DNA of 64,000 nucleotides from Methanoculleus formosensis. GTDB taxonomy: Archaea > Halobacteriota > Methanomicrobia > Methanomicrobiales > Methanoculleaceae. The stretch's first letter is position 1. The number at the start of each line of letters is the position of its first letter. The stretch spans positions 124,001 to 188,000 of the forward strand of contig NZ_VHLL01000001.1 in assembly GCF_025384765.1 (NCBI RefSeq). Direction: 5' to 3'. The notes beneath the pieces were generated by a model. That model worked only from the letters and a program-made list of their open reading frames with translations, ran no database searches and was not told the DNA's origin. Shown piece after piece: positions 38,431 through 51,683 of this stretch. The translations under genes and the position numbers were made by a program.

Positions 38431-38467
38431 GTTCGGTTCCAGCCGAACGATGGCTGCCGATTTTATA
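38431..38467 (+). promoter_or_regulatory. Palindrome-TATA promoter, copy 1
   Basis: Palindrome GTTCGG-TTCCAG-CCGAAC (38431-38448), 12 bases, TATA box TTTTATA (38461-38467). AGAAGGTTTA lies ten bases before the palindrome. Four promoters between 38 and 48 kb have this exact geometry. A site upstream of the TATA box suits an activator, though repression is not excluded. Confidence 0.8.
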
Positions 38468-38489: not shown

Positions 38490-38657
38490 ATCGGGTGCCG
38501 CGTGCGGTACCCGCTTGTGTGCGGGGGGTTGCCCATCCCCGGTTGGCGCCTGGATGACGCGCCCCGCTAGCCCGGAGGCAAAGGGAACGTAAGCGTTCTG
38601 CGTACTTAAACGTGTGCCTCTCCTGCCTCTGGGAAAAGAACCTGGAGGAAAAAACAC
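38490..38657 (+). promoter_or_regulatory. Structured 5' leader RNA, copy 1
   Basis: The transcript should begin about 25 bases after the TATA box, then carries hairpin P1 (GGTGCCG-CGTG-CGGTACC, 38494-38511), P2 (CCCGC/GCGGG), a competing helix GCGGGG/CCCCGC enclosing CATCC/GGATG, and GTAAGCG-TTC-TGCGTAC, inside a GGAGGCA/TGCCTC closing pair. The last segments can also pair with the GGAGG ribosome site before the ATG. Copies 2 and 3 are highly similar; see them for covariation. Confidence 0.72.
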
Positions 38658-39980
38658 ATGAACGGAAAAATTGGACTGCGGGCATTCTCCATGCTCCTGG
38701 CGGTAATGCTGGTGAGCGTGGTTTTGGTGCCTGCGGTGAGTGCTTCAGACTTCAAGAGTAAAGATGAGCAGATGTCTAACAGATCCGCTAGCGAGAAGGC
38801 TCTTGTCCACTTTGGGGATCTGACAGAGATGAGAATCGCTGATGAGAAAGAGGTCTACGCGAAAATCCCCTCTTCGATAAAGAACTACGATTTAGTAGTC
38901 TTTTACCTGCCGAAAATCCGTGAACATCTGCTTCGTGGTGATCAACTAACAGTGTATCTAGAAGGGCAGCCTTACACGATGGATCTACAGGAAACGACGA
39001 TTGATACAGAAGCTATTGCTACAGGGATCCATTCCTTTACCGGCAGTCTCACTGGTGTTGAAGATAGCCAAGTGCTTCTTACGGTTGGTAATAACGTTCT
39101 GCTGGGCAGAATTGTTATTGATTACACCGAATATTTCATCGAAAGCACCTCAATGCAAGATTCGAAACCGTCAAGTGCGTTCTTACAATATGTGTACTCA
39201 TCAAAAGATATTGTCCCCGAAGGCGACACGATCCCCATCGACTTCCATCCTCTTTCAACTCATGCAATCGACGAAAAAGCATATGCGCTGAAGAAAATGC
39301 TTGAAGAACAGGCTGATTCGCGTGCAACCGTCACTGTGAGAGTCCTTGTTGCTACCGATAGCCAATGGATGGCAGACGAGCCTGATTAGCAGGACACAGC
39401 GGCAGCCATCATTCAGTATTGCAATTATGACTTTAACACTCTCGGAGTGAACATCGTGCCCATATATGATACATCGAAGGCGCAACAGCTCTCCAACGAT
39501 CCGCAGATTATCAACTCTTCACTCTCAACATTCAAAAAATATTTCCCCGAATCATACCTAAATTCGAAATCCGCAGATCTCGGCTTGTATTTAGGCGGTT
39601 ATGACTCCATCGAATTTGAAGGGGTTGGATCTTCAGGGGGCTATGACTTCCCCTGCCTTTGCAGATATGCATGGGCGCAAATGGCAGATGATCCCTCTAC
39701 CTATGACGCTGTGCTCAAAGACAGAGCGGTTGTAACCATGCATGAATTAGGACATGCTTTTGATGCGGCCCATGAATATGCACCCAACCAAACAGAGACC
39801 TATACCAGAGCTTACCAATTTTACGAACATAACAGGTACTATCAGACCGTTATGTGGGGCTGTTTCATGAAAACCGCCTGGCTGCAATTTTCGGCAAACG
39901 ATGGCTTTTATGGCGATGCCAACCATGATAACTCGCGGAGAATTACTGAAACGAAGGGTGTTGTCGCATCCTATTGCTGA
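38658..39980 (+). pseudogene. Secreted metzincin-type metallopeptidase with in-frame TAG
   Basis: One frame runs 440 codons from ATG 38658 to TGA 39980, interrupted once by TAG at codon 244 (39387-39389). Before it are a signal peptide (FSMLLAVMLVSVVLVPAVSA) and the propeptide domain (NYDLVVFYLPKIREHLLRGD, HSFTGSLTGVEDSQVLLTVG). After it comes the catalytic domain with HELGHAFDAAH at about 362 and a Met-turn candidate. Alignment with the intact paralogue at 44415 places a tryptophan next to the TAG, one base away. Base use after the start is unusually AT-rich. Read-through would give a full peptidase; otherwise only a secreted propeptide is made. Confidence 0.8.
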
Positions 39981-40097
39981 GGTCGGGAATCAACTTCCCC
40001 TGTTGGTGGTGAGTATAGGTGCCGGCAATAGTTCCCGGAAGGGGTGGAGCGGGCTTGCCCCTCACCCCTCAGAACAGATCGCATGTGGTGTACTGAA

Positions 40098-40952
40098 ATG
40101 ATCCGAAAAAATCCCCTGCTCCCGGCTCTGCTTCTGGTGGTCGTGGCTACGGTGCTGGTGGCAGGTTTTGCGGCGTTCGGGCCCGGCACGGAGGTCGCCG
40201 GTACCTCAACCCCGCAGGAGCTGGTCATGGTCCATATCGACTCTTTCACGGAGAAGAGGGACGCCTCGGCCCGGGATCCCGGCGACCTCGGGATCTCGTC
40301 GTCGATCCGGCGCTATGACCTTGCGGTCTACGATACGCAGGCAATCCGGGACCACCTGCTCCGCGGCGAATCACTGACCGTGTACATCGCCGGGCAACCC
40401 TACAAGGTGGACCTGCAGGAGTCGTTGCACGACCCCGAATCCCGCAGTGCTGGGAGGCACTCCTTCTCCGGCACGCTTGACGGGGGCGGAGCGGCGCTTC
40501 TGACCATCAGCGACAGCGTTCTTCTCGCCCTGTTCAGGATCGGCGGTGTTGAATACTACGTGGAGAGCACAGGACAACACGATACCGTATTCCCAGAGAG
40601 GATTCTCCACTACGTCTACTCTTCCGCCGACGTCGTCCCGGAAGGCCCGCCCGCGATGTTGAGCGGCTGCTACCTCATACTGCACAATATCAGCAACGGA
40701 AAGGCGGAACATTACGGGTTCGAGCTTCCTGCAAACTGGACCGAGGCCGACTTCCGGAGCGCCGGGTACGAGATCGCCCAGCTCACCGATGCCGATCTCG
40801 CCGAACTTCCCACAGTGAATGAAACCCTCCATAGCGGCGGCCTGGAGGTGCTGCTATCCGAAGACGAGGCGGGGCGTATCGCAAAGAGTTACCGGGGGAA
40901 GATCGTGGAGTATCGTGGGAGTTACTATCTGATCGACTTCATTGTAAGTTAA
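40098..40952 (+). CDS. Propeptide-only secreted protein with C-terminal HP...GxYY-like domain
   Basis: The 284-residue protein has an N-terminal helix (LLPALLLVVVATVLVAGFAAF), a propeptide-like domain (RRYDLAVYDTQAIRDHLLRG, HSFSGTLDGGGAALLTISDS, LHYVYSSADVVPEG) close to that of the broken peptidase just upstream, and the tail AQLTDADLAELPTVNETLHS ... GKIVEYRGSYYLIDF. It has no catalytic domain. It is a full-length paralogue of the 24391 product. Start ATG 40098 is chosen for its signal-like helix. It is convergent with the winged-helix regulator gene. Confidence 0.78.
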   Translation: MIRKNPLLPALLLVVVATVLVAGFAAFGPGTEVAGTSTPQELVMVHIDSFTEKRDASARDPGDLGISSSIRRYDLAVYDTQAIRDHLLRGESLTVYIAGQPYKVDLQESLHDPESRSAGRHSFSGTLDGGGAALLTISDSVLLALFRIGGVEYYVESTGQHDTVFPERILHYVYSSADVVPEGPPAMLSGCYLILHNISNGKAEHYGFELPANWTEADFRSAGYEIAQLTDADLAELPTVNETLHSGGLEVLLSEDEAGRIAKSYRGKIVEYRGSYYLIDFIVS

Positions 40953-41022
40953 TACCGGGAGTGAGGCAGGGGATTCCGGCCCCACAGCCCGGGAACAGGC
41001 GTTTGTGCGACTGGGAGAGAAA

Positions 41023-41496
41023 CTACGCCGGTATAGGGGAATTTCTCCGCCGGCACCACAGCGCAAGGTACCAGAGCGCGATCGTTATACAGAGGAGCGC
41101 CTCGCCCGCGTAGAGGAGGAGGGGTTCCCGGACGACGCTTCCCCCCTGGATGGTGAAACCGTGGAGAAATGATGTCACGCAGAGCACCCCGGCCGTCATG
41201 GCAACCAGGGACGTGCCGAGGAGGAAGACGATCCGGTGATCCCTCCCGGGATGAAGGATCCGCCGCCCCCTCTCCGTCAGGGTGTAATCCCGCCATTTCC
41301 GGGCGTTCTCGTGCGTCACCAGGTCCGCGTCGGCCAGGACGGCGAGGTGCTCATGAACGGTCGACTTGGCAAGGCCAAGCCGATCGGCGAGCTCGCTCAT
41401 CGTCATCGGCCGGGTATCGAGCGATTTGAGGATTGCGACCCGGACGTCGGAAGCGAGAGTGGTGATATCGTCCCGGTCGAGCGTGACATTTTTCAT
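41023..41496 (-). CDS. Membrane-tethered ArsR-like winged-helix regulator
   Basis: The 157-residue protein has an N-terminal winged helix (LASDVRVAILKSLDTRPMTM, SELADRLGLAKSTVHEHLAV, wing RKWRDYTLTERGRRIL) and then two C-terminal membrane helices (IVFLLGTSLVAMTAGVLCVT and LLLYAGEALLCITIALWYLA). Such one-component regulators bind DNA while anchored in the membrane. It is the last gene of the minus-strand run that begins at the palindromic promoter at 44.0 kb, which makes it the best candidate to bind that palindrome. I start at MKNVTLDRDD because the domain begins there. Confidence 0.82.
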   Translation of the reverse strand: MKNVTLDRDDITTLASDVRVAILKSLDTRPMTMSELADRLGLAKSTVHEHLAVLADADLVTHENARKWRDYTLTERGRRILHPGRDHRIVFLLGTSLVAMTAGVLCVTSFLHGFTIQGGSVVREPLLLYAGEALLCITIALWYLALWCRRRNSPIPA

Positions 41497-41621
41497 GGTC
41501 TGGTCTGGAACAATCAGGTATTCTTCCGTCGGGAGTGAAAAGGGTTCCGAAACGGTCTCGGGGTTCTTCCCGGGTGAAACGGGGCTTCGGGCCGGTCGGA
41601 CGGGTAGAATTTGTCCTGGAG

Positions 41622-42437
41622 TCATCTTGCGGTCATCGTCGGTAACGGGATGATCGGGGGCGCATCCGCGCCCTGCACGATAACCACTGCATATCCCCGG
41701 GGAAGGCGGGCCCTGTTGTAGTTGGGGTCCGGAGTAAAGCCGGGGTCGGGCCCTTCTTTCCAGGAGGTGTTGGAACCCGGTATGGTGACGGTCACCCGCC
41801 GGAAGTCGAAGGTGATCGGCGTGTCGTTCGGGGTCGTGATGGTGTACGGGGCGGCAAGATCGATCGTCAGGTAAAGGATCTCCTCCGGGCCGGGCTGCGG
41901 AAGGTCCGCCGTCACCCGCACTTCGCGCCACTCCCCGGCGGCGAGGTCGTCGACGGGCAGCGAGGTCGAGGCGCCGGGGAGGACATCCCCCTCCGGCGAC
42001 CCGGTGGTGGTGTTCAGGCTCGCGGTTTCCGTCGTCACGGCAAGATCGGCACGTGCGCAGTCTTCGCCCGCGAGGTTCCGGATGAAGAAGTCGAGGCTGA
42101 TCCTGTCGCTCTCGATTGCGATATCGGGAGTGTACCGGATATCCTCCGGGCGGGCCGGATCGAGGCTGTAGCGGTCACCGAGGGAGAGGGTCTGGCTCCA
42201 GGCGGTAGTATTCTGCAGCTGCCAGGTCTCGTTCGTCCCGTCGTAGACGATCACCGGGCTCTCGTAGGGGCCGCGGTACTCGAACCCCGGTCCGGACGGC
42301 ATCATCCAGTTTACCCGCTTAAGCGGTTCCTGCACGTGCTGGTGCCCCGGGGGGAAGGCAGCGAATATGGCGAGGTTCGCCGCAACGAGGAGGAGAACGG
42401 CGGCAAAGCCAACCCATACCCACGTCTTCGAGTGCAT
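41622..42437 (-). CDS. Membrane-anchored extracytoplasmic protein, unknown
   Basis: The 271-residue product has one N-terminal helix (VWVGFAAVLLLVAANLAIFA) and a beta-rich extracytoplasmic portion with many possible N-glycosylation sequons (GTNETW, NTTAW, LNTTTG, SNTSW) and a proline-rich C-terminus. No domain recognised. It lies between the PepSY gene and the winged-helix regulator gene on the same strand, spaced by 26 and 125 bp, and is probably co-transcribed with them. Confidence 0.72.
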   Translation of the reverse strand: MHSKTWVWVGFAAVLLLVAANLAIFAAFPPGHQHVQEPLKRVNWMMPSGPGFEYRGPYESPVIVYDGTNETWQLQNTTAWSQTLSLGDRYSLDPARPEDIRYTPDIAIESDRISLDFFIRNLAGEDCARADLAVTTETASLNTTTGSPEGDVLPGASTSLPVDDLAAGEWREVRVTADLPQPGPEEILYLTIDLAAPYTITTPNDTPITFDFRRVTVTIPGSNTSWKEGPDPGFTPDPNYNRARLPRGYAVVIVQGADAPPIIPLPTMTAR

Positions 42438-42463
42438 TGTATCACATTAGGAAAAGAGGTGAT

Positions 42464-43240
42464 TTAGAGGTATGGACTCACCATCAGCACTTCTCCGGTC
42501 TGTGCGTCGATAACGACAAGCCCTCCCTGGAGAACGTGGTCCTCTGGCTCGCCTCTCATCGTAATCACCCATGTCAGCGTCTGTACGTCCGGTCGGGTGT
42601 ACTCGACGGAGAGGTCGGCCGTTGCACCGGTCACCCGGATTCCCGGGAACTGCCCGGCTACGATCTTCAGCGCCTCGTCCCGGGAAAGTTTCGGCTCAAG
42701 CGGGCATTCGATCCCCCGCTGGATCCCGATGTACGAGACGATCTCGCCGGTGCTCGGGTTAAGGTTCACGACGACCGTGTTCGGCGTGAGGACACCGCTG
42801 ATCTCTTCTCGCCAGATGTACGAGTACTCGCTGCCCGCATCACCGTGAGAAACCAGGTCCGATCTGGTAAGCTGCATACTCTTCTTCGCAAAGCCGCTGT
42901 ACTTCTCTTCGGCGTAGGCCCTTGCCGCTACTTCGGCTGCGGCCCGATCCAGCCGGATATCCTGGCAACCCTTCCGTGCGGAATCGAACGTGGCACGTTC
43001 GATCACCCCGGTCCGGGCGTTGACGTAAACCTGTCCGTCTCCGGTACCAAAGACATAGTACTCTCCCAGATTCAGGCGTTCAGTCTTCTGGTACTGGACG
43101 GTTGCGTCGGGTGCGTTAAGAAAGTCCTGTGCTTTTCCTTTCGCGGTATCCACTCCGATTGGAGCACTGGCGCCAGTTGCCGACACGATCGAGACCGCGA
43201 CGACGAGGCATAGCATTGCAACAATGTATATCCGTTTCAT
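42464..43240 (-). CDS. Secreted PepSY-domain protein
   Basis: The 258-residue protein has a signal peptide (IYIVAMLCLVVAVSIVSATG) and two PepSY-like units: YYVFGTGDGQVYVNARTGVI with an Asn/Asp-Thr-Gly turn, then VVVNLNPSTGEIVSYIG and VVIDAQTGEVLMVS. PepSY domains are found in propeptides of M4 metallopeptidases and in free proteins thought to inhibit or chaperone peptidases. It directly follows the clan CD peptidase gene (16 bp gap), so a protective role toward it or its metallopeptidase neighbours is plausible. Confidence 0.8.
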   Translation of the reverse strand: MKRIYIVAMLCLVVAVSIVSATGASAPIGVDTAKGKAQDFLNAPDATVQYQKTERLNLGEYYVFGTGDGQVYVNARTGVIERATFDSARKGCQDIRLDRAAAEVAARAYAEEKYSGFAKKSMQLTRSDLVSHGDAGSEYSYIWREEISGVLTPNTVVVNLNPSTGEIVSYIGIQRGIECPLEPKLSRDEALKIVAGQFPGIRVTGATADLSVEYTRPDVQTLTWVITMRGEPEDHVLQGGLVVIDAQTGEVLMVSPYL

Positions 43241-43255
43241 GATTGAATCATCCCA

Positions 43256-43948
43256 TTAATAGACCCCATAGCGAGCGGGAGTGAGACAACTGTTGTAACT
43301 GCCGGAGATCTCGTAGGTGTCCACTCCATGGTAACCGAACGGCCAGTGCAAGTAGCAGTCGTCCTTTGCATTGCTTGCGGCGCTTGCAACGGTCTCCCCG
43401 TTTCGCAACCGGTCCCAGAAGCTCCCGGACCAGCACTTTCCGTTTTCGACCTCGACCTCGCCGTCGAACCCCAGGCAGATGTCTGCGCCTTTGTTCATGG
43501 TCTGCTGGAGAAGATCTCCGTTGTAAGGGTTGTAGTGGGACGTATGGCAGGCGAGGTAGACCGCGAGCAGGACGTCCCTGATGTCGGTCCCGTAATCAGA
43601 TATGTAATACTGGTAGTTTCCCGGGTAGTGGCCGTCGGTGTCGGCCAGTATCCAGGATTCCGAGGAGAACTTTATTCCACCGCCTTTGTGCGAGTCGTCG
43701 TAGTAGAGGCCGTGGCCGTTGAAGAAGAACACCGCATCCGACCTGAACTGATTGTACGCTGTCGATGCGTGTGCATTCGTGGACGACGAGCTGGAGTAGT
43801 ACATCGCTGCCTGATCCACCCGTGCGTCGTAGGCCGTCGGCGTCGTATCCGAACAGTCATAGTTGTGCGCGGGTGGTGCGGCGCTGGCGACAGCAGGCAG
43901 AGCCGCGAGCAGGAAGAGTGCTGCCAGCATGTAGATCCATGGTTTCAT
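43256..43948 (-). CDS. Secreted clan CD (caspase/gingipain-like) cysteine peptidase
   Basis: The 230-residue protein has a signal peptide (YMLAALFLLAALPAVASA) and then a compact alpha/beta domain. His79 in AVFFFNGHGLYY and Cys134 in LLAVYLACHTSHYN sit at the ends of successive hydrophobic strands, followed by GADICLGFDGEV, the order of the His-Cys dyad in clan CD peptidases. No other family motif competes. It is the first gene of the minus-strand run from the palindromic promoter at 44017-44053. Confidence 0.72.
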   Translation of the reverse strand: MKPWIYMLAALFLLAALPAVASAAPPAHNYDCSDTTPTAYDARVDQAAMYYSSSSSTNAHASTAYNQFRSDAVFFFNGHGLYYDDSHKGGGIKFSSESWILADTDGHYPGNYQYYISDYGTDIRDVLLAVYLACHTSHYNPYNGDLLQQTMNKGADICLGFDGEVEVENGKCWSGSFWDRLRNGETVASAASNAKDDCYLHWPFGYHGVDTYEISGSYNSCLTPARYGVY

Positions 43949-44016
43949 AAGTATCCCTCAAGGAGCGCCCGGGCGTTCCTGCACCCGGAACTAAACCCGA
44001 ATTCGAGGGGGAATCT

Positions 44017-44053
44017 TATAAAACCCGCTGTCGTCGTTCGGTTCTGGCCGAAC
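44017..44053 (-). promoter_or_regulatory. Palindrome-TATA promoter on the minus strand (copy 4)
   Basis: On the minus strand: palindrome GTTCGG-CCAGAA-CCGAAC (44036-44053), 12 bases, TATA box TTTTATA (44017-44023). A GTTTAAGAT word precedes the palindrome, as in copy 3. It drives the clan CD peptidase, PepSY, unknown protein and regulator genes. There is no structured leader here: the start codon is about 70 bp from the TATA box. Confidence 0.78.
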
Positions 44054-44187
44054 AAATCTTAAACTTTGCGATCTGCTGCGTGACGGCATGGATGAAGGTG
44101 AGGCTGTTCGGGACTGTGATGTGTTGTCGGCGGGTCTTGCCTTCAAGGGCCGGGATCATTATCCCGCCATAAGAAGGTTTATGGTGC

Positions 44188-44224
44188 GTTCGGTTCCAGC
44201 CGAACGATGACTGCTTATTTTATA
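44188..44224 (+). promoter_or_regulatory. Palindrome-TATA promoter, copy 2
   Basis: Palindrome GTTCGG-TTCCAG-CCGAAC (44188-44205), 12 bases, TTTTATA (44218-44224). It is divergent from copy 4, 134 bp away, so one regulator could act on both peptidase transcripts. Confidence 0.8.
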
Positions 44225-44247
44225 TGTTCTAAAGACTCAGAATCGCA

Positions 44248-44414
44248 TTAGGTGCCACGTGTGGTGCCCACTTGTGTGCGGGGGTCGCCCATCCCCAGGT
44301 CTGACGCCCTGGATGACGCGCCCCGCAAGCCCGGAGGCAACAGGATGTACACATTCTGCGCACTTAAACGTGTGCTTCTCCTGCCTCCGTGGACCGAAAC
44401 TGGAGGAAAACGAA
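44248..44414 (+). promoter_or_regulatory. Structured 5' leader RNA, copy 2
   Basis: P1 reads GGTGCCA-CGTG-TGGTGCC (44251-44268): the loop is unchanged from copies 1 and 3 while the closing pair has changed from G-C to A-T, a compensatory change. The GCGGGG/CCCCGC and CATCC/GGATG helices are kept. GGAGGCA (44334-44340) can pair with TGCCTCC (44382-44388), and that CCTCC can instead pair with the ribosome site GGAGG (44402-44406). This suggests translational control. Confidence 0.75.
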
Positions 44415-45776
44415 ATGAACGGAAAAACTGGAATGCGGGTATTCTCCTTGCTCACGGCGCTGCTGCTGGTGGGCGTGGGGGTTGTGTCTGCGGTGAGCGC
44501 CCAGGATGTCACAGGGACCCTTCCCGCAGATAGCAGCGAGCCGGTCCTGGTCATCGGGGATTCTATGGATGTACTCATCACGGGTACTACATCGGTATCC
44601 GATATGCGAGCATCCGGAATCAACGCTCCAGAAGAGCTGAATATCCCGAAGGGCATTACCCGGTACGATCTCGTGACGTTCGATCATGCTGCACTGAACA
44701 AGCAGATACGGGGTGTACTCCCCCTCCGGGTCCACGGCAAGGAGTACCAGGCCGAACTGCACAGGATGGATTTTGAGCAGATCGACGACGGCATCGACTC
44801 GTACGAGGGGGTGATCGTCGGCGTTGGCGGGAGCGATGTTCTCCTGACGACCGGGGAAAACGCCCTTGTCGGGAGTGTAACCTTCGGTAACGAAACATTC
44901 TGGATCACCCCGGTCGAGTCGCGAGCGCGCGCAAAGGGAGAAGCATCGCCTCTGCATGTCATCTACAGCTCTCGGGATATTGAAAATCCTGAAAAATGGA
45001 GTCTTATCGACTACGGGACGCTCACGCCCCCGGAAGGATACACTCCGATCGAAGTTCCCGAGAATCTGGAATCTTCCATGAGAGAACTCCAGGACCAGTA
45101 TGCCACGGTCAATCTGCTGGTGGTTACCGATAACCAGTTCTACCAGGATCAGGACAACTGGAAAACAGTCGCTCAGGATATCGTAGCCGAAGCGAACCGG
45201 CAGTTTGACCGGGACGATATTAGGGTGACGCTCTGTGTAATGGCGTATACCGATTCAAAGCGGGTTCAACTCTCAAACCATTCTAACATCACGAGCAACC
45301 CCGTTGTTGCGGTCCAAGCGATCTATCCGAACACCGACCTTGATCTCTGGGCCGCAGATATTGCACTGTATGTTGGTGGTTACGATGCAGACGGTTCTGC
45401 ACAGGGGGCTACTTACGGCTACTACCCATATCATCATCGGCATGCCTGGGCTCAGATGGTCCCTGACGACATCTTGTACCTGGGTACCACACACGGCCGC
45501 AGGTGCGTGAGCATCCATGAACTGGGGCACCTCTTTGATGCTGGTCACCAGGAGCTGGATGAAAACCGGACGATCCCGTCTTACCGTAGGGCCTACCAGT
45601 GGTATCAACCGTTTTCTCCTCCCCTCAACCTCAAGAATACCGTGACATACAGTTACTTCAATGAGTTGATGAGTACCACTGAATTTTCATCGGACGACTA
45701 CCACGGGGATGCCGATCACGACAACGCAAGGAGAATCCGGGAGACGAAATGGACAGTTGCGAACTATCACTCCTGA
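44415..45776 (+). CDS. Secreted metzincin-type zinc metallopeptidase with propeptide
   Basis: The 453-residue protein has a signal peptide (FSLLTALLLVGVGVVSAVSA), a propeptide of about 160 residues (SDMRASGINAPEELNIPKG, RYDLVTFDHAALNKQI, ASPLHVIYSSRD) like reprolysin-type prodomains, then a catalytic domain with VNLLVVTDNQFYQDQDNW at its start, HELGHLFDAGH at about residue 368 (HExxHxxxxxH zinc site) and a Met-turn candidate FNELMSTT. It should degrade extracellular protein. I start at ATG 44415 because of the GGAGG site and signal peptide; the in-frame extension is the structured leader. Confidence 0.85.
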   Translation: MNGKTGMRVFSLLTALLLVGVGVVSAVSAQDVTGTLPADSSEPVLVIGDSMDVLITGTTSVSDMRASGINAPEELNIPKGITRYDLVTFDHAALNKQIRGVLPLRVHGKEYQAELHRMDFEQIDDGIDSYEGVIVGVGGSDVLLTTGENALVGSVTFGNETFWITPVESRARAKGEASPLHVIYSSRDIENPEKWSLIDYGTLTPPEGYTPIEVPENLESSMRELQDQYATVNLLVVTDNQFYQDQDNWKTVAQDIVAEANRQFDRDDIRVTLCVMAYTDSKRVQLSNHSNITSNPVVAVQAIYPNTDLDLWAADIALYVGGYDADGSAQGATYGYYPYHHRHAWAQMVPDDILYLGTTHGRRCVSIHELGHLFDAGHQELDENRTIPSYRRAYQWYQPFSPPLNLKNTVTYSYFNELMSTTEFSSDDYHGDADHDNARRIRETKWTVANYHS

Positions 45777-45947
45777 TGGGAGCCGATGCGAGTCTCACCC
45801 CTACCACCTTTTTAAATTGTTACCGGGTGATTTGGTGGTACGGAAACCCCGGGCAGCATGCGTCAGAAAAGAAGAATGGGGGCCGCCGGAAGGATCTGGG
45901 GCGTTCTCTTTCTGGCAGGATCGGGCGAAAGGGATAAAGGAGGTCAC

Positions 45948-46397
45948 ATGAAATCGAAACATGACAGACGTTTGGTTATCGAGGGGGTTCTGGCGTTCAT
46001 CGGCGTCATCCTCCTCGTTGCGACGGTTGTGCTCACGTGCACCGCCCTCTTCAACTGGCTCGAAGCAAGCGGTGGATCCCCGAGATTGGACGTCTGGGAG
46101 ATCAGGGGCGAACTGCCGCCGGAAAATGCATCGATCATCCACCTGACCGAGAAAGACTTCGAGCAGCACCCGGCGCTCGACTCCGCAATCCGGGGCGACA
46201 ACCGGGGTCCCGGTGCCTGGTATTCGGGAGACACACCGTACGGTGTCCTCGACGAGCGAACGATTGGGAGCGCTCCGGTGACATACCTGGAACGGGAAGT
46301 ACTTATCGAGTCGTTTGGTCCCGATGTCGAGGCGAGAAACCAGCCGTACATCGAATACGAGGGTGCGTATTACTACTTTCTCATCCTGATCCCCTAA
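45948..46397 (+). CDS. Small membrane protein with HP...GxYY domain (type A)
   Basis: The 149-residue protein follows a strong AAGGAGGTCAC site, has one N-terminal helix (IEGVLAFIGVILLVATVVLT) and the outside domain IIHLTEKDFEQHPALDSAIR ... VTYLEREVLIESFG ... IEYEGAYYYFLILIP. It is the paralogue of the 22413 product (same MxxxRxRLV opening style). It lies 171 bp after the metallopeptidase gene with its own TTTTTAAAT TATA-like box, and 27 bp before the type B gene. Confidence 0.75.
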   Translation: MKSKHDRRLVIEGVLAFIGVILLVATVVLTCTALFNWLEASGGSPRLDVWEIRGELPPENASIIHLTEKDFEQHPALDSAIRGDNRGPGAWYSGDTPYGVLDERTIGSAPVTYLEREVLIESFGPDVEARNQPYIEYEGAYYYFLILIP

Positions 46398-46424
46398 AAT
46401 CGGGTCAAAACAGGTGCTATTGGA

Positions 46425-46871
46425 ATGGAAGAAGATAAAAATCCGAAATCAAGGAACCGGCTCAAAACGGCGGCCCTCGTCGTCGCCTGTGGTCTTGCCA
46501 GCGTCATCGCCATCGCGCTCGGCCTCATGCTCGCCGACGCCCTCATCATCTACGCTCACGAGAGTTCTGGGGAACAGCCGATGTTCTACGTTATGGAGAG
46601 AGCGGAGCCGGGGGGAAGCGTGATCGTTCCCCTGACTGAGCAGGACTTCGAACAGCACCCCGAACTCGCCGCAGTCATCCGGGGTGAGGAGCGGAACCCC
46701 TCGGCGTGGGAGTGGGGCTACCGGGATCAACGTGTCATCGGGGGAACTAAGGTCTCGTACACGGAGAGCAAGGCGCTCCATGATGCCTACGGTCCCCGAG
46801 AGGGGAGGGGGCTGTACCCGCTCATGGAGTACGAGGGTGCGTATTACGTGGTCCTGACGACATGGCCCTGA
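46425..46871 (+). CDS. Small membrane protein with HP...GxYY domain (type B)
   Basis: The 148-residue protein is nearly collinear with the 22835 product: helix LVVACGLASVIAIALGLMLA, then MFYVMERAEPGGSVIVPLTE, FEQHPELAAVIRGEERNPSA, VSYTESKALHDAYG and YEGAYYVVLTTWP. The conservation of both proteins as an ordered pair behind a peptidase/propeptide gene at two places argues for a joint function, perhaps membrane receptors or immunity-like partners of the peptidase. Confidence 0.77.
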   Translation: MEEDKNPKSRNRLKTAALVVACGLASVIAIALGLMLADALIIYAHESSGEQPMFYVMERAEPGGSVIVPLTEQDFEQHPELAAVIRGEERNPSAWEWGYRDQRVIGGTKVSYTESKALHDAYGPREGRGLYPLMEYEGAYYVVLTTWP

Positions 46872-47202
46872 AGGGGAGTCCCCGTCGCCCGTGCTCGATA
46901 TGCATCGCCTCTTTCCACGGGGGAGGCAAGTCGGAGGAAGTGAACTGAACCACAACATCAGTCTGGGCGTCACCGCCTGGCCTCGGGCCACCCTATCCCG
47001 CTATTATCCGGCCTTAGAGGCCGACTGGGGGAAAATCTCGGGAGGTACCATTCTCCCCCCTCAGCGAAGAAAAGGTTTGGGTTTTTCTGTTCCGAACCGG
47101 TTCTCCAGAGATCGGGTGAGTGCATCCTTTCGGGCACATCCCCTGGCGGGGACGGGGGCACACTGCCGTGCGATCGCCCCACAATGAGAAGGTTTAAGAT
47201 GA
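46872..47202. other. Non-coding gap before promoter copy 3
   Basis: No gene seen. GAAAAGGTTTGGG (about 47068) and GTTCCGAACCGGTTC (about 47088) look like a degenerate version of the AGAAGGTTTA-palindrome arrangement found intact at 47203, so an older promoter copy may be decaying here. Confidence 0.35.
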
Positions 47203-47239
47203 TTTCGGAAAAAACCGAACGATGGCTGCTGATTTTATA
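47203..47239 (+). promoter_or_regulatory. Palindrome-TATA promoter, copy 3
   Basis: Palindrome TTTCGG-AAAAAA-CCGAAC (47203-47220), 12 bases, TTTTATA (47233-47239). The spacer within the palindrome has changed completely from TTCCAG while the arms stay, as expected for a dimeric protein site. Confidence 0.8.
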
Positions 47240-47263
47240 TATTCTAACGACTCAAAATCGCGT

Positions 47264-47433
47264 TGGGTGCCGCGTGCGGTACCCGTTTGTGTGCGGGGGT
47301 CGCCCATCCCCGGTCGACGCCCTGGATGACGCACCCCGCAAGCCCGGAGGCAAAGGGAACGTACGCATTCTGCGTACTTAAACGTGTGCCTCTTCTGCCT
47401 CCGGAAACCAAAACGAGCAAAGAGGTAGAAAAC
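47264..47433 (+). promoter_or_regulatory. Structured 5' leader RNA, copy 3
   Basis: P1 GGTGCCG-CGTG-CGGTACC; P2 CCCGT/GCGGG with a G-T wobble where copy 1 has G-C; GCGGGG/CCCCGC enclosing CATCC/GGATG; perfect GTACGCA-TTC-TGCGTAC hairpin; GGAGGCA with TGCCTCC downstream. The ribosome site here is AGAGGT rather than GGAGG. Confidence 0.73.
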
Positions 47434-48381
47434 ATGGAAAAAAGAATCGGAATGCGAGCTCTCTCTATGCTCTTGGCAGTAATGCTGGTGAGCGTGGTGG
47501 TGCCTGCAGTGAGTGCCTGGACGGAAAACGATCCGATCTGTATCGAAGATCAAGCCAAAATCCAGGGGTTATTCAAACCTATCGACGAAAACATCCGTGT
47601 GATTACCGCAGAGGATTTAATGGTGTCCGATCGTGCGAGTTCAGTGAGATGTTCTGAATTGTTATCGGAAATCATGGAGAAATATGACCAAAACCTTGAG
47701 GACATTATCTCTATTCTGGAGAAGACCACAGATGTTCAACCTGACGAGAAGGACCGAACCGTTCTGAAGGAAGTGATTGTCGGTGAGCATTTCAGACGAG
47801 TGTGTGACGAAATACTGATGGAACAGCGTGATCTTCGGGAGGAGGACGCTCTGATCGTCCAGCCGCAGATCCTTGGTGTTGCGGATTGTCAGGAAGATAT
47901 GGACAAGATGCTTGCAGAAACAGACAGGTGGGATACGTTCATCCTGGCCCAGTGCTCGCCGGATGTGTACGGCGGAACCGGACTTGACGGTGCAAATCTA
48001 CCTTACTCAGTAAATGGAGGCAATAACCTCTATGAAGTGGGTGTCTGGCCTGGCAGCCCGACCACATATCAGCTGCGCTATTATGACGAGGATCACCCGA
48101 GCCCGGTGACGGATATCGAGTACGATGCATTCAGGCTTTTATATTACGGGACTCTTGAAGACCGTGCCTTGTTTGATGTAACGGGCTCCCAGATCTACTT
48201 CAATTATTGTTGGAATGATGGTTACACATATGCCTGGCTCTACGGAATTCATGGGTATCAGTACAGGCCCAAGACCTCCGTGATCTACACCAGCAATATC
48301 TGGAACCATGATATCGACACTTACAACAGCAACCCGAATATCGGGCAGCTTGTCATGTCGGTACCCTACATTCAACAGTAA
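47434..48381 (+). CDS. Secreted protein of unknown function behind leader copy 3
   Basis: The 315-residue protein shares only its signal peptide (ALSMLLAVMLVSVVVPAVSA) with the metallopeptidases. The mature part starts WTENDPICIED, has a helical, charged N-terminal half with spaced cysteines, and an aromatic-rich C-terminal half (DGYTYAWLYGIHGYQYRP). No catalytic motif is recognised. Co-regulation with the peptidases suggests a related extracellular role (substrate, inhibitor or novel enzyme). Start ATG 47434 fits the signal peptide. Confidence 0.72.
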   Translation: MEKRIGMRALSMLLAVMLVSVVVPAVSAWTENDPICIEDQAKIQGLFKPIDENIRVITAEDLMVSDRASSVRCSELLSEIMEKYDQNLEDIISILEKTTDVQPDEKDRTVLKEVIVGEHFRRVCDEILMEQRDLREEDALIVQPQILGVADCQEDMDKMLAETDRWDTFILAQCSPDVYGGTGLDGANLPYSVNGGNNLYEVGVWPGSPTTYQLRYYDEDHPSPVTDIEYDAFRLLYYGTLEDRALFDVTGSQIYFNYCWNDGYTYAWLYGIHGYQYRPKTSVIYTSNIWNHDIDTYNSNPNIGQLVMSVPYIQQ

Positions 48382-50855: not shown

Positions 50856-51683
50856 ATGCAGGCAATCAAAATACTCCTGATATTGGCGCTCCTCCTCCCG
50901 GCGGGTTCCGCCGCCGCTCCGGCGCCCTCCACCGGGGGCACCACGAACTGGCTCGATACCTTCGACGAGTGGGCCGGGCCCCGGGACATGTCGATGTACA
51001 ATCCGGTCATTGAAACCCCGCAGAGGGTTCCGATCACTGAGGAGATCGCACGGCAGCACCCCGGTCTGATCCTGCTCGATGAGAACGTGACGTTCCCCGA
51101 CGCCGGGTGCGTGGTGGCGCCGGGGCTGCCGTCCGGCCCTGCGATGCACGTGGTCATGACCGATCCTGCGTACTTCAGCCCGGTTCCGCCTGCCTCGCGG
51201 CCGAACCTCACAAGCCTTCCGCCCCTCCGGAAGTACGACCTCGTGACCGCCGACCCGGCGGCGTTCGTCGCCGACGCGGGTTTGGGGGGCCCGGTGACGC
51301 TCCGCCTCCCCGGCCGGGAGTTCGTGCTCGACCTCGAACCGGTGCCGGGCCCCGTTGCGGAAGACGCCCGGGCGTTCGTCAAGAACGAGTCGGGCACGTT
51401 CGCCGTCGCCCTTCCTTCTACATGGCGCTTTGAGGGGACGGTCGCCGGGGAGCCCGGGAGTTCCGCCGCGTTCACGGTCGGCACCGACGTGATCCTCGGG
51501 ACGGTCCGGTGCGGCTCGACGTCGCTCGTCATCGACCAGGCCGGGACTGTCGAGGTCGGCGGAGAGCAGAAGATCGTGCACGCCATTTACGACGAGCGGG
51601 ACGTCATATCGGCATGCGGCCTGAGCAGGCTCATTAATCCTTCAGTGAGCCTGATTGACGTTATGAGGACGCTGAAGGCTTAG
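50856..51683 (+). CDS. Secreted propeptide-like protein without peptidase domain
   Basis: The 275-residue protein has a signal peptide (ILLILALLLPAGSAAAPAPS), then RVPITEEIARQHPGLILLDE, which recalls the start of the HP...GxYY domain, then a propeptide-like region: RKYDLVTADPAAFVADAGLG, GPVTLRLPGREFVLDLEPVP, FEGTVAGEPGSSAAFTVGTD, IVHAIYDERDV. No catalytic motif follows. The order of the two parts is reversed compared with the 24391 and 40098 proteins. Driven by promoter-module copy F. Confidence 0.72.
   Translation: MQAIKILLILALLLPAGSAAAPAPSTGGTTNWLDTFDEWAGPRDMSMYNPVIETPQRVPITEEIARQHPGLILLDENVTFPDAGCVVAPGLPSGPAMHVVMTDPAYFSPVPPASRPNLTSLPPLRKYDLVTADPAAFVADAGLGGPVTLRLPGREFVLDLEPVPGPVAEDARAFVKNESGTFAVALPSTWRFEGTVAGEPGSSAAFTVGTDVILGTVRCGSTSLVIDQAGTVEVGGEQKIVHAIYDERDVISACGLSRLINPSVSLIDVMRTLKA

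Follow-up and report, generated by a model that had tools for sequence, protein, structure and literature searches.

What controls the genes that follow three long, structured leaders in the genome of the methanogen Methanoculleus formosensis? The window analysed here is a stretch of 64,000 nucleotides (nt) of contig NZ_VHLL01000001.1 (positions 124,001–188,000), in which leaders of 167–170 nt each stand 5′ of the genes at 38658, 44415 and 47434. The original prediction, made from these letters, had placed a leader RNA before each of the three genes and suggested riboswitch-like or thermosensor control. According to the comparison with relatives, we propose that the leaders belong to a family of cis-acting two-state switches on translation initiation, serving a regulon of exported proteins (probability about 0.77). 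The core of the proposed switch is element 3 (UGCCUCC), which can pair with element 1 (GGAGGCA) or with the Shine–Dalgarno (SD) sequence, never with both together.

A scan of the window with the first covariance model (R1) confirmed the three predicted leaders at 120–134 bits (E from 1e-27 to 1e-31), and beyond them gave no match with E < 1. The core pattern of the family is exact in two of the three (chance expectation 0), and the source genome holds six copies in all, three of them beyond the window. A TATA-like TTTATAT was found by reading at 38462, 44219 and 47234, about 30 nt 5′ of each leader. The transcript start is thus expected near the base of hairpin P1, and we infer starts there for the three window leaders. 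The folding z-scores are −1.95, −1.44 and −3.72 for copies 1, 2 and 3.

The leader stands directly before the gene and consists, in order, of hairpin P1, hairpin A, a rod and the SD hairpin. P1, at the inferred 5′ end, is present in all clades with a sequence differing by clade; in 63 alignable copies, 91.6% of cells are paired and 55 show a double change, where shuffling gave 34 at most. The predicted CGTG loop of P1, and the change of its closing pair from G-C to A-T in copy 2, are present. Hairpin A keeps its position and shape and differs in sequence between clades, falling into three or more sequence classes. In class 1, 29 cells show a double change (shuffle maximum 17), and 90–94% of cells are paired in Methanosarcinales. 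The pairing of GCGGGG/CCCCGC around CATCC/GGATG, also predicted, is found in the window and is maintained via double changes in relatives. Pooling hairpin A in one alignment mixed classes that are not related and put false pairs at the top; per-class tests were used instead.

The rod contains element 1 (CCCGGAGGCA), a variable helix, the helix P3 with a conserved UACUU, and element 3 (UGCCUCCGGG), and it includes strongly conserved bases. R1 used local hairpins inside the rod; these were replaced by the continuous rod with P3 that is seen in Methanosarcinales sequences. A 7-bp hairpin with a TTC loop, claimed for all three leaders, is exact in copy 3 only, and relatives have the longer helix P3 instead. 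A CCCGC/GCGGG helix, called P2 in the prediction, was rejected as a family feature, being not conserved even among the three window copies. A second UGCCUC upstream of element 3 was considered as an extra switching strand and dropped: it is near-invariant in Methanoculleus, shows no covariation, and is not kept as such in Methanosarcinales. The SD hairpin is formed by element 3 and the SD, which usually lies 4–11 nt before the ATG. Folding without an alignment gave median z-scores of −1.7 (P1), −2.2 (hairpin A), −2.7 (rod with SD) and −2.3 (SD hairpin), whereas the DNA just upstream scored −0.4.

The two exclusive pairings were examined with a second covariance model (R2), built from 17 sequences, mostly Methanosarcinales, and an alignment of 112 distinct sequences. 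R2 does not include the SD hairpin, whose pairing is therefore not favoured by the alignment; the hairpin also lies beyond the column alignment because the spacing before the SD varies. Over the rod and hairpin A, 85.6% of the cells are paired, and 251 double-change cells were counted, compared with 98 ± 9 after shuffling (0/500) and 42–107 after sliding. The pair between base 4 of element 1 and base 7 of element 3 occurs as GC 39, GU 22, AU 11, UA 11 and UG 8 times. The same element 3 base also pairs with the base before GAGG in the SD (C-G 16, U-A 11, A-U 5, G-C 9; chi-square p = 2e-11). When duplex energies were compared with those of permuted partners, element 3 with the SD gave z = −11 (0/2000) and element 1 with element 3 gave z = −3.2, against z = +0.3 for the control of element 1 with the SD. 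When element 3 and the SD were left out of the tree building, the element 3 base changed at least 18 times on the tree. In 14 path-disjoint contrasts, the own SD base was favoured six times and the swapped base never (p = 0.016), and for element 1 the count was 4 to 0. The strands are seen to move together at locus L208 (CCCAAGGGCA, UGCCUUUUGG and AAAAGG) and in a Methanosarcina subgroup (CCCUAAGAGGCAG, CUGCCUCCUAGGG and CUAGGAG). Both competing pairings are thus kept by compensatory changes in Methanosarcinales, a hallmark of two-state switching of translation. The predicted mutually exclusive helices at the ribosome site are each backed by covariation in more than 100 relatives.

These results suggest two states. 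In the ON state, elements 1 and 3 would pair, the long rod containing P3 would close, and the SD would be free; in the OFF state, element 3 would pair with the SD and translation would be blocked. ON is probably the default, as the rod can already fold while the SD is still to be transcribed. An occupant of element 1 would release element 3 to cover the SD. In 73 Methanomicrobiales leaders, the predicted median gap between the SD-free and the SD-paired ensemble is 1.2 kcal/mol. In 89 R2-aligned leaders, blocking element 1 is predicted to cut the free SD from 0.56 to 0.06 and to lift the pairing of element 3 with the SD from 0.20 to 0.90.

In the window, the parts of the three units are located as follows.

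38490–38657, plus strand: leader RNA copy 1, running from the predicted start of the transcript up to the ATG, which is not included (R1 match 38521–38652, 134 bits)
38492–38513, plus strand: copy 1 hairpin P1, from the fold and the P1 pair counts
38521–38567, plus strand: copy 1 hairpin A, GCGGGG/CCCCGC enclosing CATCC/GGATG, from the fold and pair counts
38571–38580, plus strand: copy 1 element 1, CCCGGAGGCA, competing with the SD for element 3
38589–38617, plus strand: copy 1 helix P3, GUAAGCGUU with AACGUGUGC
38603–38609, minus strand: copy 1 invariant TACTTAA, read as TTAAGTA on this strand; candidate TATA box of an antisense promoter, by its constant spacing to element 1
38624–38633, plus strand: copy 1 element 3, UGCCUCUGGG, partner of element 1 or the SD
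38644–38648, plus strand: copy 1 SD, GGAGG
38658–39980, plus strand: gene 1, secreted metzincin-like protein, with an in-frame TAG at 39387–39389
44248–44414, plus strand: leader RNA copy 2 (R1 match 44276–44410, 120.1 bits)
44251–44268, plus strand: copy 2 hairpin P1, closing pair A-U replacing G-C, from the fold
44278–44326, plus strand: copy 2 hairpin A, from the fold
44330–44339, plus strand: copy 2 element 1, CCCGGAGGCA
44347–44375, plus strand: copy 2 helix P3
44382–44391, plus strand: copy 2 element 3, UGCCUCCGUG
44402–44406, plus strand: copy 2 SD, GGAGG
44415–45776, plus strand: gene 2, secreted protein of 453 amino acids with a weak M12/reprolysin match
47264–47433, plus strand: leader RNA copy 3 (R1 match 47291–47424, 122.9 bits)
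47265–47284, plus strand: copy 3 hairpin P1, from the fold
47293–47339, plus strand: copy 3 hairpin A, from the fold
47343–47352, plus strand: copy 3 element 1, CCCGGAGGCA
47361–47389, plus strand: copy 3 helix P3, with UACUU at 47375–47379
47396–47405, plus strand: copy 3 element 3, UGCCUCCGGA
47421–47425, plus strand: copy 3 SD, AGAGG
47434–48381, plus strand: gene 3, secreted protein of 315 amino acids, no family above the curated cut-off

The pairing of GGAGGCA with TGCCTCC and the alternative of CCTCC with the SD, as predicted, occur in all three copies with small variations, namely CCTCT in copy 1 and GAGG as the SD in copy 3. A palindrome, GTTCGG-N6-CCGAAC with at most one mismatch, is present at 38431–38448, 44036–44053, 44188–44205 and 47203–47220 (0.44 expected by chance). 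It lies 5′ of all three leader promoters, and the copy at 44036 precedes the divergent gene 43948–43256; it is likely a transcription-factor operator common to these promoters. The in-frame TAG of gene 1 is TGG in four relatives, and is probably a recent nonsense change in this strain. Directly downstream of gene 1, the secreted protein encoded at 40100–40952 has the same N-terminal propeptide-like region and no leader. The gene at 50856–51683, also leaderless, resembles the N-terminal region of the transglutaminase-like protein that follows the leader at locus L092. Thus, related cargo exists with and without a leader.

An occupant of element 1 is suggested by the antisense RNA sRNA162 (RF02792) of Methanosarcina. 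In M. mazei, the starts of sRNA162 and MM2442 were mapped by rapid amplification of cDNA ends, the MM2442 start lying 184 nt before the annotated start codon, and nt 1–65 of sRNA162 bind the MM2442 leader, a target in cis, according to gel shift and footprint (PMC3510493). The RNA is processed to stable 5′ fragments of 55–65 nt, and in stationary phase this processing is complete; its homologue sRNA171 shows similar behaviour (PMC3510493). Among 40 relatives, full-score sRNA162 was detected in 12 genomes of one genus. At the full-score loci examined, L341–L348 (152–215 bits), it lies opposite an R2 leader (42–58 bits) in eight of eight cases. The 5′ end of sRNA162, GCCUUCGGGC, is the complement of element 1, and the complementarity continues back through hairpin A. 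At these loci sRNA162 would be the natural candidate occupant: on binding the MM2442 leader it is predicted to cover element 1, and element 3 would then hide the SD. Antisense RNA is the leading candidate effector there, and antisense control at these loci seems to us slightly more probable than its opposite.

Beyond these loci, the leaders carry the near-invariant TACTTAA, which on the opposite strand reads TTAAGTA (or TTAAATA). Its spacing to element 1 is 22.7 ± 0.9 nt in 80 Methanosarcinales and 22.6 ± 0.55 nt in 66 Methanomicrobiales, and its position in copy 1 corresponds to the region just upstream of sRNA162 in Methanosarcina. The motif and spacing would suit an antisense promoter, with TTAAGTA as its TATA box and its start site at element 1; such a promoter is one possible reason for the conservation, although a role in the RNA would leave the same picture. 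To our knowledge, antisense transcripts at such leaders are known in Methanosarcina alone, and antisense control across the whole family, which outside the sRNA162 loci is an extrapolation, appears doubtful. Equally tentative, and rather unlikely as a whole, is the scheme in which every leader would carry, on the opposite strand and some 22 nt ahead of the complement of element 1, a promoter (TTAAGTA), a short antisense RNA would block element 1 and so shut the SD, and much of the exported proteome of two orders would be switched in trans. Element 1 is nearly identical in all copies, so such antisense RNAs could act in trans.

Weak antisense matches to sRNA162 at further leaders (33–51 bits) were left out of the count of sRNA genes because the leader complement alone resembles the start of sRNA162. 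They include sub-threshold matches on the minus strand opposite other Methanosarcina leaders (L206:1366–1556, L195:4193–4384 and L170:4031–4221). The match at L206 spans all 190 positions and could represent an antisense RNA gene that has diverged.

Several results weigh against the proposed switch or its antisense control. Full-score sRNA162 is confined to one genus, and at the gathering threshold RF02792 has no match in the window, including opposite the window leaders, where of the antisense features only the TATA-like element at its constant spacing is present. Overexpression of the 65-nt sRNA162 fragment gave no obvious phenotype, and according to the same paper, what follows from its binding to the MM2442 leader is not known (PMC3510493). 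The constant spacing between element 1 and UACUU could also reflect RNA structure. About one-third of the sequences have no Watson–Crick pair at the tested SD position. The element 1 and element 3 arms of Methanomicrobiales show no covariation and have uncompensated A-C mismatches. In Methanoculleus these segments and the SD are almost frozen, so there is little power for covariation, and only the SD hairpin gives a weak permutation signal (12/500); in Methanosarcinales they vary. Alignment A6 was fitted to the structure of the model. Covariation in a larger alignment, which the original prediction had proposed to test with R-scape, was found by the focused pair tests and was weak by a home-made, unvalidated R-scape-like test (FastTree, a Fitch-based null, and a G-test with APC correction). 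On a structure-free alignment the latter gave one pair below E = 0.05 (E = 0.031, in hairpin A), and for Methanomicrobiales region B alone it gave no pair at E < 0.05. The support for the switch rests on the focused pair tests, not on the R-scape-like test.

The same switch may be driven by a metabolite, as a riboswitch, or by an RNA-binding protein recognizing the rod or hairpin A, with antisense RNA having no general role. This explanation shares the expression-platform architecture backed by covariation, and it would fit the strongly conserved rod bases and the restriction of full-score sRNA162 to one genus. On the other hand, the sequence of hairpin A differs among clades, the genes have export in common and not a pathway, no Rfam riboswitch matches, and one member is already known to be bound by an antisense RNA; we regard this alternative as possible, at odds of about one to two. 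A constitutive leader, protecting the mRNA or fixing the translation level without switching, is improbable. The 5′ hairpin P1 in all clades and the conservation before signal-peptide genes are in its favour, whereas a fixed structure leaves the complementarity of one base to two partners unexplained.

The thermosensor part of the original prediction gained no support, although the leader is riboswitch-like in the sense of how it would work. The upstream anti-SD can pair with the SD, as an RNA thermometer opened by warming would require, but warming from 20 to 55 degrees is predicted to raise the free SD by little (0.28 to 0.36), and so is warming from 10 to 50 degrees (0.48 to 0.62). A conserved competing strand is also not expected of a simple thermometer, and this explanation is very improbable. 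We give just as little weight to a DNA-level cassette, in which recombination copies a promoter, leader and signal module between genes. Leader and signal-peptide codons of high DNA identity do precede unrelated cargo in Methanoculleus, and chimeric copies exist. However, compensatory changes in both orders imply that RNA pairing is under selection; shuffling may account for the spread of the leaders, not for their structure, and as the sole explanation it is contradicted by the pair statistics. The chimeric leaders (L019, L021, L022, L038:3775–3911 and L050:871–1016) have a normal 5′ part and a foreign element 3/SD part, which suggests recombination between leader–gene units.

The leader family is widely distributed. 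By DNA similarity, the leader was found in 36 of 100 relatives; R1 detected it in 49 of 232 genomes of Methanomicrobiales. The search of methanogen genomes with a covariance model, as originally proposed, succeeded with R2: of 393 genomes sampled from the phylum, 79 have the leader, and they cover 22 genera of Methanomicrobiales and Methanosarcinales. The copies per genome reach 14 in Methanoculleus and 23 in a Methanosarcina-like genus. Across 84,980 species, the core pattern matches Methanoculleus, Methanogenium and other Methanomicrobiales, and in Methanosarcinales it matches Methanohalophilus, Methanosarcina, Ca. Methanoperedens and metagenome-assembled genomes. Three matches (L140, L155 and L157) are in metagenome-assembled genomes labelled Bacillota, WOR-3 and Bacteroidetes; their leaders and cargo look archaeal, and these contigs are presumably misbinned.

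The 163 predicted proteins after the leaders form 32 clusters, an approximate count because the largest cluster is held partly by the common signal-peptide region. An open reading frame with a hydrophobic N-terminal segment follows at 95 of the 112 R2 loci. Pfam families in the cargo include metzincin-like (M12, M10) and C39-like peptidases, transglutaminase, DUF6345 and Big_14; most cargo proteins match no Pfam family, and the cargo gives no metabolic hint. As judged from these sequences, export is the common factor, not a pathway. The comparison supports the existence of the family, its position upstream of signal-peptide genes, the two competing helices and the overlap with sRNA162; an effect on translation, and control of other copies in trans, would follow from the model.

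The leader family itself is not in Rfam. No Rfam 15 family exceeds its gathering threshold over the window leaders on the sense strand, and with a relaxed E-value on the relatives the antisense sRNA162 was the sole match, with no riboswitch match. In the open-access literature, with subscription papers and supplements outside the search, the family is not described beyond the MM2442 locus. The MM2442-type leader is a member, with its element 1 opposite the 5′ end of sRNA162. The paper on this pair treats one locus, without the leader family, its structure, the competition between element 1, element 3 and the SD, or the link to export, and it reports no ribosome-binding site before the annotated start (PMC3510493). 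The leaders resemble the bacterial translational riboswitches that sequester the SD in having two exclusive helices, one of which hides the SD, in a 5′ leader directly before the gene. They differ in being archaeal, tied to exported proteins and without an Rfam match; the likeness is one of architecture. The fluoride riboswitch of Thermococcus kodakarensis is likewise an archaeal leader presumed to act on translation, but the leaders described here give no sense-strand match to crcB or to another Rfam family. Methanosarcina also has long, structured leaders before a surface-protein gene, the S-layer gene slmA1 (159 and 154 nt, with mapped 5′ ends; PMC3361143). They were rejected as family members, as R2 finds no homology, with no match up to E = 5 at ten S-layer loci. 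Leaders of this length, thought unusual for an archaeon in the original prediction, are not so in methanogens: in Methanolobus psychrophilus, 24% of the 5′ untranslated regions exceed 150 nt (PMC5378194).

Hardly any natural RNA switch of archaea has experimental support; in 2021 the T. kodakarensis riboswitch was named as the only experimentally determined one (PMC8241225). The family described here is large and old, several copies are present in Methanosarcina genomes, and genetic tools exist for M. acetivorans. The switch model would give the published, unexplained pair of sRNA162 and MM2442 a mechanism and a wider context, and the family would unite exported proteases and surface proteins, many of them so far unstudied, in a single regulon.

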